From: Thermodesulfovibrionia bacterium
GTDB taxonomy: Bacteria > Nitrospirota > Thermodesulfovibrionia > UBA6902 > BMS3Bbin08
NCBI GenBank assembly: GCA_030694425.1
Contig: JAUXYI010000003.1
Coordinates: forward strand, 1-59,077
DNA length: 59,077 nt
Direction: 5' to 3'
This document shows positions 27,873-31,353 of this stretch, in pieces (within the stretch, counting starts at the first letter, position 1; the number at the start of each line of letters is the position of its first letter). Below the pieces are notes generated by a model. The model was not told where the DNA came from, searched no databases, and saw only the letters and a list, made by a program, of their open reading frames with translations. Both the position numbers and the translations under genes were made by a program.

Positions 27873-28211
27873 AACTGATATTCACCTTACAATTCATAGC
27901 TTGCTGAGGTTTTCTTACGTCATTCCTGCGGATGCAGGAATCCAGCTCGAATATCCTCTATCTTCCCCTCTTAAAAATCTTGACAACCCAAAGGGTTTGA
28001 TAGATAATTAAGCCATAATAAACTCTCATTTTTCCTAATAACCCGATAACCTATAGAGGGTATTAAGGGGGTGAGAAGTGACAAAATTTGTCAACAACAC
28101 GAGATTCCGGTGCGTCAGCCAGAATCGGGATATACGAAACAGGTTCGTCTATAACCCCGGAATCGAGAATATATACGAAACAAAAGTTCGTATAAGTGCA
28201 TCAACACCGAA
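27873..28211. other. Intergenic region upstream of the DUF262-HEPN unit, with repeats
   Basis: No gene. A GTCATTCC fragment lies at 27920-27946 (GTCATTCCTGCGGATGCAGG). Two similar hairpins follow: TATACGAA-N5-TTCGTCTATA at 28131-28153 and a perfect TATACGAA-N7-TTCGTATA at 28172-28194. These may be an attachment site for the adjacent cassette-like unit. Confidence 0.5.
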
Positions 28212-28222
28212 GTTATAAGAAA

Positions 28223-28252
28223 TTGTGCCGAGATATTATTTTGCTTTATAAT
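28223..28252 (+). promoter_or_regulatory. Putative promoter of the DUF262-HEPN operon
   Basis: TTGTGC (28223-28228) and a perfect TATAAT (28247-28252), 18 bases apart, inside the proposed cassette. AAGGAG precedes ATG 28280. Confidence 0.5.
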
Positions 28253-28279
28253 GTTAAAACCTGAATAAAGGAGTCTTCA

Positions 28280-29350
28280 ATGAAAACATTTGATATTACT
28301 ACAACTCAATATAAGGTAAGTGATTTTCTCAGTTGGCAAAAAGCAGGAACACTCATATTAAGCCCCAGCTTTCAGAGAAGATCTGTTTGGAAAAAAGGAG
28401 CAAAATCATATCTTATCGACACTGTAGTTAGAGGGTTGCCTATACCAATCATATTTATTCGTGAGCGAAGAACTGATTTGAAAACTTTCGAGCCTCTACG
28501 AGAAGTTGTAGATGGTCAACAGAGAATAAGGACATTAATTTCATATATTTCTCCTAACTTATTAACTGACATAGATAAAAATAGGGATATATTTACAGTA
28601 TTACCTAGCCATAATAAAGAAATAACTGGATATATATTTGAAAAATTGTCCGAAGATATAAAGAATAAAATTCTTGATTATAAATTTAGTGTCCATGTTC
28701 TTCCTCCTAATGTTGACGACCAGGATGTCTTACAAATATTTGCAAGGATAAATTCAACTGGCATGAAATTAAATGGCCAAGAATTGAGAAATGCTGAATA
28801 TTATGGTGAATTCAAAACACTGATGTACAATCTTGCTTTGAAAAATCTTAATAGATGGCGGAAATGGAAAATATTTACCGAGGACGATATCTCACGTATG
28901 TTGGAAGTTGAACTGACAAGTGAACTCTGCATTTTCATGCTCAATGGCATTACTGCAAAAAAACAGAAGGCTATTGATGGAATATATGAAAAGTATGATC
29001 CATCTTTTAAAGAAAAAAGTGGAATCGAAAAAAGATTTGACTTTGTTATGGAAGCTATTGATGAAAATCTTGGCGATAAACTACAATTTTCCGCTTACAA
29101 AAATAAAACATTATTTTATGGCTTGTTCGGGATAATTTATGAGCTTACTTATGGTGAAAAAGCTAGTTTAGAAAAACTTCAGCCCCAAAAAACAACAAGA
29201 AAACAATGGTCAAATTTGATTGGCGAATCAGAGAAATTTGAAAAAAAGAAAGTCCCGATAAAGGTTATTGGAGCCATAACAAGAAGAACAACTGACTTAT
29301 TATCCAGAAAAATATTATTTGATCACTTACGAAAAATTGTAAATGGCTAA
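28280..29350 (+). CDS. DUF262-domain protein (GmrSD N-terminal-like)
   Basis: 356 residues. LSPSFQRRSVWKKGAKSYLI and the hallmark VVDGQQRIRTLISYI place it in DUF262, the ParB-like NTP-sensing domain of type IV restriction enzyme GmrS. The C-terminal DUF1524 HNH nuclease domain of GmrSD is absent; the remaining 200 residues are helical, with a second motif FARINSTGMKLNGQELRNAE. The last 8 bases overlap the HEPN start. The gene is AT-rich compared with neighbouring core genes. Likely the sensor or regulatory half of a two-gene defence module. Confidence 0.85.
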   Translation: MKTFDITTTQYKVSDFLSWQKAGTLILSPSFQRRSVWKKGAKSYLIDTVVRGLPIPIIFIRERRTDLKTFEPLREVVDGQQRIRTLISYISPNLLTDIDKNRDIFTVLPSHNKEITGYIFEKLSEDIKNKILDYKFSVHVLPPNVDDQDVLQIFARINSTGMKLNGQELRNAEYYGEFKTLMYNLALKNLNRWRKWKIFTEDDISRMLEVELTSELCIFMLNGITAKKQKAIDGIYEKYDPSFKEKSGIEKRFDFVMEAIDENLGDKLQFSAYKNKTLFYGLFGIIYELTYGEKASLEKLQPQKTTRKQWSNLIGESEKFEKKKVPIKVIGAITRRTTDLLSRKILFDHLRKIVNG

Positions 29351-29960
29351 GCATTCAAGTGCATATTTTTTCCAATTTATTAGTCATCTTAATAATGTCG
29401 AACATACTAGAAAAAAGATGGAGTTTTTATATGAACAGAAACTAATTGTTGAAAGGGATTTAAATTTTGTCTATTCCGGGCTTTTTCTCGATGTGATTAC
29501 AAATTTTGAAAATATGATTGAAGATCTTTTTACTGATTTATTAACGGGTAATACAAAACATCTTTCAAGAAAAGTGCAAACTAAAATTATTTTCCCAACT
29601 ATTAATATTTGCCGTGATATAGTTTATGGAACTAAGTCATACATTGATTGGTTCCCATATGACCAAACATTAAAAAGATCAAACATATTTTTTAAAAACG
29701 GATTGCCTTTCAGTTCGCTTGAAAAACAAAATAAAACGATATTACAAGAAATGGTATATATTAGAAATGCGCTAGCTCATAAAAGTAGGCATGCTTTAAA
29801 AATGTTTAACCGGGAAGTAATTAAAGATAAAGTTCTTATTCCTAAAGAAAAATCCCCGATAGGTTATCTTAGAAGGATCGTTGCTTTAGCACCTCGTCAA
29901 ACACAGTATGAAGTTTATATATCAGAAATAGCAAATATCGCGAAGATTTTATGCCACTAA
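29343..29960 (+). CDS. HEPN-domain protein, putative ribonuclease partner of DUF262
   Basis: 205 residues, all-helical. The HEPN signature R-N-x4-H appears as RNALAHK near residue 140, preceded by conserved acidic helices (FENMIEDLFTDLL). It resembles the MAE_28990-type HEPN group. HEPN proteins with RNxxxH are metal-independent RNases in toxin-antitoxin, CRISPR and abortive-infection systems. ATG overlaps the DUF262 stop (8 bases), so the two are stoichiometrically coupled. Catalytic role is inferred. Confidence 0.72.
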   Translation: MAKHSSAYFFQFISHLNNVEHTRKKMEFLYEQKLIVERDLNFVYSGLFLDVITNFENMIEDLFTDLLTGNTKHLSRKVQTKIIFPTINICRDIVYGTKSYIDWFPYDQTLKRSNIFFKNGLPFSSLEKQNKTILQEMVYIRNALAHKSRHALKMFNREVIKDKVLIPKEKSPIGYLRRIVALAPRQTQYEVYISEIANIAKILCH

Positions 29961-29966
29961 AATTTG

Positions 29967-30046
29967 CTCGGCACAACTTATTATAACACAATGCAAAAGA
30001 CTGACGTCCAAACCCTTCGGGCTTCTTTTCCACCAAGAACGTTATC
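29967..30046 (+). other. attC-like recombination site after the HEPN gene
   Basis: R'' box TTATAAC (29981-29987), AAAAGA arm (29995-30000), central CCCTTCGGG loop, TCTTTTCCACCA arm (30024-30035) and GTTATC box (30041-30046). The 3' half is nearly identical to the site at 39237-39312 (CTTCTTTTCC-CCAAGAACGTTATC). Size and layout fit attC. Confidence 0.55.
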
Positions 30047-30099
30047 TGCAATTGAACGCTGAAAGTGGTAAAATGTATATATGAAGAAAATCCGCATAT

Positions 30100-30321
30100 A
30101 TCGGACACAATATTTTATCTCCCAACTTTCGTAATGATGCCAGACATATTGCTATGGCTACAGTAGCAGGGGCAGATTTATTGGTCAGTTGGAATTTCAA
30201 GCATGTTGTGCATTTTGAGAAGATTCAAAAATTCAATGCTGTAAACATAGAGATGGGCTATAAACCCATCTTGATTTATTCACCGAGGGAGGTGACAACA
30301 TATGGCCGTCAAGGCAGTTGA
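30100..30321 (+). pseudogene. C-terminal fragment of a PIN-domain toxin
   Basis: An open frame encodes RNDARHIAMATVAGADLLVS then WNFKHVVHFEKI and IEMGYKPILIYSPREV, clearly related to the PIN toxin at 9658-10143 (RNDARHIAI, VSWNYKH, KMGYNPIEIISPEEV). The N-terminal two thirds with the first PIN acids is missing; sequence before about 30125 is unrelated. Confidence 0.75.
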
Positions 30322-30484
30322 AATGGTTCGCAAAGTTCGGGATAGGCACTATGAGCAAACAAAAGGTCTTTCAGCAAAAGAGCAAATAGAATTTATTAGA
30401 AAGAAGTCAGAGGAGTTACAGAAGAAGCTTAAAATTATTCAGCGTTCAACTGCAGATAACACAGCACAAACGACCAAAGTCTAA
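30302..30484 (+). CDS. Small protein, paralogue of the third gene of the UPF0175-PIN module
   Basis: 60 residues: MVRKVRDRHYEQTKGLSAKE and on, related to the 60-residue product of 9495-9677. It begins 20 bases inside the PIN frame, exactly as there. GGGAGG precedes the ATG. Its C-terminal codons (TADNTAQTTKV) run into the attC-like site, so its natural end may differ. It survives although the toxin is broken. Confidence 0.6.
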   Translation: MAVKAVEMVRKVRDRHYEQTKGLSAKEQIEFIRKKSEELQKKLKIIQRSTADNTAQTTKV

Positions 30485-30521
30485 ATTGCTCCACAACTTC
30501 GTCTGTACCGCAAACGTTATC
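30445..30521 (+). other. attC-like site after the PIN remnant
   Basis: TTCAACTGCAGATAAC (30445-30460) complements the preceding unit start GTTATCTGCAATTGAA (30041-30056) at 15 of 16 positions, then ACAGCACAAACGA can pair with TCGTCTGTACCG before a GTTATC box (30516-30521). This repeats the cassette logic of the previous unit. Confidence 0.5.
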
Positions 30522-30707: not shown

Positions 30708-30965
30708 ATGGAATATATTCTGAAAGTTTCACCAAAGGGGCAGGTTACCCTGCCAAAAAAATTAAGAGAGGCGCTTAAAGTAAATGACCTCATTGAGATT
30801 GAACTAAAAAACCGCAGGGGAATTGTTAAAAAGCCTGAGAGCATAACAGATGACCTTGCCGGGTGCTTCAGGAAATATGCCCTTAAAAGGAAAATACCAG
30901 TAGGAAAGGCTTTGGAAAAAGCCAGAGACATGGTTGCTCATGAAATTGCCAAAAAAAATAATTGA
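30708..30965 (+). CDS. AbrB/MazE-type antitoxin (VapB)
   Basis: 85 residues. SpoVT/AbrB swapped-hairpin DNA-binding domain (LKVSPKGQVTLPKKLREALKV) and a C-terminal toxin-binding tail. Overlaps the toxin start by 26 bases. Autoregulation is suggested by repeated GTATAAC sites over its promoter. Confidence 0.85.
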   Translation: MEYILKVSPKGQVTLPKKLREALKVNDLIEIELKNRRGIVKKPESITDDLAGCFRKYALKRKIPVGKALEKARDMVAHEIAKKNN

Positions 30966-31353
30966 TGCCAATGTAATTCTGAGATTTTTTCTTGCCGATG
31001 ACGAAGAAAAATTTCTAAAGACAAAGGAGTTTTTCAGAAAGCTTGAGTTCGGAGAAGATGAGGCGCTGCTGACGGAAATTGTCTTTGCCGAGGTTATATG
31101 GGTTTTGCATAAAGTCTATAATATACCCCGTGAAGAAATTTGTTCAAAATACCTGAAATTGCTTAATTACAGCGGCATAAAAACTGTTTTCGACAAAGAG
31201 ATATTTACAGAAAGCTTAAATCTGTATTCCAGTCACACAATAGATATTCAGGATATTTTTTTGGCGGTTTTAGCAAAATTTAAAGACAGCAGTATTATTT
31301 CATTTGATAAAACAGATTTTAAGAAATTAAAAGCTAATTTTACAGAGCCATAA
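30940..31353 (+). CDS. PIN-domain toxin (VapC)
   Basis: 137 residues from ATG 30940; a TTG at 30934 is possible. PIN acids: IIDANVILRFFLADD, TEIVFAEVIWVL, DIQDIFLAVLAK and ISFDKTDFKKL. Mg2+-dependent RNase, neutralised by the preceding VapB. The stop is 16 bases from the convergent rapZ stop. Confidence 0.88.
   Translation: MKLPKKIIDANVILRFFLADDEEKFLKTKEFFRKLEFGEDEALLTEIVFAEVIWVLHKVYNIPREEICSKYLKLLNYSGIKTVFDKEIFTESLNLYSSHTIDIQDIFLAVLAKFKDSSIISFDKTDFKKLKANFTEP

Follow-up and report, generated by a model that had tools for sequence, protein, structure and literature searches.

A probable integron gene cassette with a candidate DUF262-HEPN anti-phage module in a Thermodesulfovibrionia genome

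DUF262 proteins bind and hydrolyse NTP, and in GmrSD-type enzymes they sense DNA modification; HEPN proteins with an RNxxxH motif are typically RNases. Vassallo et al. 2022 (PMC9519451) showed that PD-T4-2 protects against T4, both in K-12 and in the strain from which it comes, and its domains, as given in a review, include DUF262 and the PF18735 HEPN (PMC10952713). A Ribo L-PSP-HEPN in an operon with ParB was recorded in the 2013 survey of HEPN proteins (Anantharaman 2013, PMC3710099). Integrons were reported as reservoirs of defence genes in 2025, for Vibrio and for mobile integrons, as far as this work is discussed in PMC12409362 and PMC12444791. The combination of DUF262 with HEPN is an architecture already known through PD-T4-2, and the family described here is a diverged variant of it. 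The first-pass annotation of the locus, whose reading as a defence module is supported in outline, had missed both the PD-T4-2 precedent and the 2013 ParB and Ribo L-PSP-HEPN operons.

The window, that is, the whole stretch of DNA analysed, comprises 59,077 nucleotides of contig JAUXYI010000003.1 (GCA_030694425.1), a 2.4 Mb Thermodesulfovibrionia assembly whose order also includes a groundwater 'Nitrospirae' MAG (locus L030). We consider it probable that the locus in Table 1 is an integron cassette whose two genes form a candidate DUF262-HEPN (PD-T4-2-like) anti-phage module.

Table 1. Features of the locus in coordinates of the window
Feature	Position	Strand	Basis
Possible preceding attC or attI, short palindromes, uncertain	28145..28222	+	fold z -1.6
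Cassette 1 start, R'-like arm GTTATAAGAAATTGTGCCGAG	28212..28232	+	complementarity to 29967-29987
Predicted integron gene cassette 1, 1829 bp	28213..30041	+	complementary ends; junction with cassette 2; joined-end fold
Possible -10 box TATAAT of the cassette's own promoter, position approximate	28249..28254	+	read directly
DUF262 / GmrSD_N protein, 356 aa	28280..29350	+	PF03235 E 2.7e-23
HEPN-like protein, 205 aa, candidate RNase effector	29343..29960	+	R141-N-A-L-A-H146, E56 conserved
attC-like site of cassette 1 (R''-like arm 29967-29987 to AACG)	29967..30041	+	complementarity, fold
Predicted integron gene cassette 2, 475 bp	30042..30516	+	complementary ends
attC-like site of cassette 2 (GCAGATAAC ... 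GTTATCTGC)	30438..30516	+	bottom-strand fold

The two genes overlap by 8 bases, ATGGCTAA, and this overlap, the presence of DGQQR without HNH or DUF1524 in the upstream product (PF03235 is the sole Pfam domain found) and the RNxxxH motif (RNALAH) in the downstream product all agree with the first-pass annotation. By eye, no Shine-Dalgarno sequence is seen upstream of the second ATG, which makes translational coupling of the pair likely. The ATG of the DUF262 gene is preceded by a good Shine-Dalgarno sequence (AAGGAG) and by a TATAAT that may be the -10 box of the internal promoter proposed earlier. The -35 element of this putative promoter is poor (TTGTGC), and the list returned by a consensus promoter scan contains no promoter at about 28249; a promoter of the cassette's own is plausible.

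The DUF262 protein contains QR and DGQQR motifs (the latter as VVDGQQR), and D78-G79-Q80-Q81 and Q32-R33 are invariant across its relatives. Its structure was modelled at a pLDDT of 93, with a purely helical C-terminal half and no HNH, and the top structural matches of the model in the PDB are SspE, BrxU and CDP-bound ParB (best E about 1e-3, probability about 1); a sequence search of the PDB gave a weak match to BrxU. The model shows a predicted ParB/Srx-type nucleotide-binding fold without a nuclease domain.

For the second protein, R141 and H146 are the two most conserved residues and are invariant in 75 of 75 homologues, followed by E56 (95%) and N142 (92%). Its model (pLDDT 97) is essentially all-helical, with the motif at the end of helix 128-146, so that the protein combines an Rx4-6H motif, an all-alpha model and a conserved acidic residue, E56, as HEPN superfamily proteins do. 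The best Pfam match of the window protein is PF18735 (E 0.02), which fails to reach the cut-off, and the same family matches 12 of 67 relatives (best 6.6e-6). When the family was compared by hhalign with ten HEPN-type proteins gathered with PF18735, one PD-T4-2_B among them, the alignment had an E value of 5e-5 and a probability of 67%, with the motif in register. A PDB sequence search gave no match, and a fold search of the model against PDB and BFVD gave no significant one; the insignificant Foldseek matches include HepT-type HEPN toxins. The HEPN label given earlier has the motif behind it and falls short of the Pfam cut-off and of a confident fold match. We call the product of gene 2 HEPN-like on the strength of the motif, the remote profile similarity and the operon order, being confident of the active-site motif and moderately confident of superfamily membership.

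The pair resembles PD-T4-2 in that a DUF262 gene is followed by an adjacent or overlapping RNxxxH HEPN gene, and the window's gene A matches the PADLOC PD-T4-2_A model (1.9e-28), though the NsnA model scores better (3.4e-43). Unlike PD-T4-2, its gene B matches no PD-T4-2_B model and indeed no PADLOC model at all, and the PD-T4-2_B models match one of 67 members of the HEPN-like family (E 0.0067). The same bacterial class holds a bona fide PD-T4-2 (locus L156, 344-2022; A 1.3e-152, B 4.1e-49) with the same layout as the window pair. The two A proteins are 27% identical over 299 aligned columns, BLAST found no similarity between the two B proteins, and the window HEPN is longer (205 aa against 180). 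An assignment to PD-T4-2 proper was rejected because gene B fails PD-T4-2_B. NsnA belongs to Menshen (NsnABC). This is the PADLOC system to which gene A is closest, but no other Nsn model matched among the HEPN members and no recurrent third gene lies near the pair; with NsnA alone matched and its partners absent, Menshen was rejected too. A literature search for 'NsnA' or 'NsnB' found nothing relevant. Since the PD-T4-2_B models failed and gene A is nearest to NsnA, we file the pair as a diverged, unnamed PD-T4-2-like family. Because the PADLOC models call gene A only, such pairs are probably under-annotated.

The Ribo L-PSP-HEPN/ParB operons likewise place a HEPN in the PF18735 range with a gene of ParB fold (DUF262-type), and in the window's class PF18735 HEPNs directly follow a DUF262 gene in several loci, L156 being one. 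The window protein differs in scoring below the PF18735 cut-off and is related to those HEPNs by remote profile comparison only. With GmrSD, BrxU and SspE the window pair shares a DUF262 containing DGQQR, and they are the closest solved folds. Type IV GmrSD systems are defined by DUF262 plus DUF1524 (HNH), whereas neither window gene encodes an HNH and the effector is a separate HEPN-like protein.

Conservation of the pairing was surveyed in 84,980 species genomes, where a profile built from six DUF262 proteins that have a HEPN partner found 80 loci. Neither of two outcomes that would have told against the first-pass reading, a lack of pairing elsewhere and a variable RNxxxH motif, was obtained. 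A HEPN-like gene lies directly downstream of DUF262 in 71 of these; because all the seeds were themselves HEPN-paired, this near-universal rate holds for close relatives within this clade and not for DUF262 at large. Spacing in 70 of the 71 ranges from a 19-nt overlap to a 32-nt gap, with one partner 206 nt away, and five loci have the same 8-bp overlap. Of the remaining nine loci, four are cut by contig ends, and in four of the other five the next gene downstream codes for an RNxxxH protein of equal size. Distances in the DUF262 and HEPN-like families covary (Mantel rho 0.805, null maximum 0.25), although this null ignores shared descent, which alone can contribute to covariation. The paired loci come from at least 14 phyla that are strongly mixed on the tree, which fits horizontal spread. 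Plasmids and temperate phages carry similar pairs; in the case of an E. coli plasmid, the DUF262 partner is annotated 'HEPN domain-containing protein' and matches PD-T4-2_B at E 4.4e-4. For the window's HEPN-like protein itself, one homologue was found on a plasmid and none in viral contigs.

No gene family accounts for more than three of the 95 genes that adjoin the pair, so that no third gene of the system was recognised there and the pair looks like a complete, autonomous two-gene module. Individual adjoining genes match restriction enzymes, DRT-type reverse transcriptases, AbiV, PD-Lambda-2_B and other candidates, a purely descriptive tally that makes no claim of enrichment.

The claim that the pair is packaged as an integron cassette is supported by two abutting cassettes in the window and by independent cassette copies elsewhere. 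The 19/21 complementarity between the two ends of the first element was reproduced, and 0 of 3000 Markov-shuffled regions reached it in a comparison of one fixed 21-mer with a 400-nt target. Cassette 1 begins with the TTATAAG that follows a G^TT junction, and its last base is the G of the AACG^TT that comes next; this refines the limits of 28212-30046 given at first. Cassette 2 starts at that junction (30041) and ends again at AACG^TT, and its own ends (30041-30063 and 30438-30460) are complementary at 22 of 23 positions. A second adjacent element with its own complementary ends and the common AACG^TT junction points to a short integron cassette array; that each element has a distinct end sequence is as expected, since a cassette's own first bases supply one half of its attC. 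The terminal attC-like hairpin described earlier depends on the form that is folded: the bottom strand of attC1 folds weakly as integrated (z -0.5) and strongly once the start and end of the cassette are joined in the way they would be in the excised circle (z -4.6). By contrast, attC2 folds well either way, with bottom-strand values of z -2.6 in the array form and z -5.2 in the circle form.

In the source genome, which is 96% complete, no integron integrase exceeds the TIGR02249 cut-off, while a full one over that cut-off is present in 73 of 231 genomes of the class, a rich integron population, and in two of three genomes of the same family. The locus is therefore best named an attC cluster without integrase, or one whose integrase was lost or not assembled. 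Elsewhere in the source genome (L110, 3388-4230), a Xer/integron-like tyrosine recombinase lies beside an IS3-type transposase; its match to the integron-integrase profile is interrupted by a gap, and it scores below the integron cut-off.

Cassette-type ends directly flank the pair in four further loci, from a Flavobacteriaceae MAG (L025), Olleya (L042), Aquimarina (L044) and Formosa (L051). Those of Aquimarina and Formosa sit in clear multi-cassette arrays with 6 to 8 attC-like repeats, and one cassette start is common to L042, L044 and L051. The window and L025 fall in a different main clade from these three, which suggests that the pair was probably recruited into integrons at least twice. 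Cassette ends were not found in L030 or in L019 (79% identical DUF262), the closest relatives, and two further loci (L062, L096) have weak terminal complementarity and no attC arrays. The closest relative of all, L019 (2538-4227), is on a 10-kb contig of a 'Planctomycetota' MAG, by recent transfer or misbinning. Integron defence cassettes (Darracq 2025, Kieffer 2025, Getz 2025), as far as the citing papers describe them, are likewise compact, each cassette carrying one or two candidate defence genes. We found no published account of a DUF262-HEPN cassette, the 2025 studies being known through the papers that cite them, and none of the papers searched mentions PD-T4-2 together with integrons. 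The recurrence of this pair as an integron cassette is the new element here, of modest novelty.

The terminal inverted repeats could instead mark a small transposon or MITE-like element. Complementarity over 21 and 23 nt is longer than the short R boxes that attC sites typically have, in cassette 1 and cassette 2 alike, and the missing integrase agrees with such an origin. The long-arm signature was not seen in the regions around the relatives' integrases, so that long complementarity is not a general rule for integrons of this class; together with the long arms themselves, this keeps a transposon-like origin alive at low probability. Several findings speak against it. No target-site duplication was found on reading the flanks; the shared AACG^TT is the meeting point of two different elements, each bounded by ends of its own; attC2 has the fold of an attC; Flavobacteriaceae carry this gene pair as a cassette within multi-attC arrays; and integron integrases are common in the class. 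Weighing these, we regard a transposon as quite improbable and an integron cassette as the preferred reading.

As to function, toxin-antitoxin modules are common cassette cargo, and the pair might be one, with the HEPN protein as toxin and DUF262 as antitoxin, kept mainly as an addictive module that stabilises the cassette or array, phage defence being secondary or absent. The two small overlapping genes and a VapBC-like pair next door fit this, and there are MNT-HEPN precedents (PMC3710099). A large DUF262 with a conserved NTPase-type pocket, its DGQQ invariant, nevertheless exceeds what a simple antitoxin needs, and PD-T4-2, the relative whose function is proven, acts in defence, so we judge an addiction role unlikely. 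The neighbouring pair lies just after the cassettes (30708-31353) and is a toxin-antitoxin system of the VapBC type, in which a PIN-domain gene (PF01850) comes second and overlaps the gene for a MazE-type antitoxin (PF04014). Modification-dependent restriction, in which DUF262 would recognise modified DNA and the HEPN protein would cleave DNA or invader transcripts directly while the host survives, draws on the role of DUF262 as sensor or NTPase part of GmrSD, BrxU, SspE, TgvAB and GrwAB. No DUF1524/HNH or other DNase domain is present, however, the C-terminal half of the modelled DUF262 protein being purely helical, and the RNase activity typical of RNxxxH HEPN domains also speaks against direct restriction of DNA, which makes this account very unlikely.

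Defence is the likely candidate function of the pair. The DUF262 protein would bind and hydrolyse NTP and sense some sign of infection, which might be modified phage DNA as for GmrSD, BrxU and SspE, and in complex would keep the translationally coupled HEPN RNase silent. Once triggered, the HEPN protein would cut RNA and phage replication would stop, probably with the loss of the host cell, while the cassette would supply mobility between integron arrays. More tentatively, and with a greater chance of being wrong than right, we propose an unnamed DUF262-HEPN defence family that is neither PD-T4-2 nor Menshen. Its sensor would depend on NTP, respond to modified phage DNA and license an RNase rather than a DNase, and the family would have been recruited into integron cassettes more than once (Nitrospirota, Flavobacteriaceae). 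The candidate system would extend the range of DUF262 defence proteins by a module that is compact, widespread and horizontally mobile and in which an RNase-type effector replaces the HNH nuclease. Since a single 1.8-kb cassette holds the two genes and perhaps a promoter of its own, it should be easy to clone and test.

Cassette 2 contains an ORF of 60 aa (30302-30484) and, by eye, the 3' remnant of a PIN-like ORF; the two may be a toxin-antitoxin pair in decay. In an E. coli prophage, where the pair lies beside the integrase, and in two P2-like phages (L103-L105), DUF262 and a small downstream gene occupy accessory positions; the small partner in L105 is without the RNxxxH motif. Some related DUF262 proteins pair otherwise: on a Pseudanabaena plasmid (L006, 3989-6245) a PD-T4-6-like protein kinase gene stands in the place of HEPN and is overlapped by the DUF262 gene by 8 bases.
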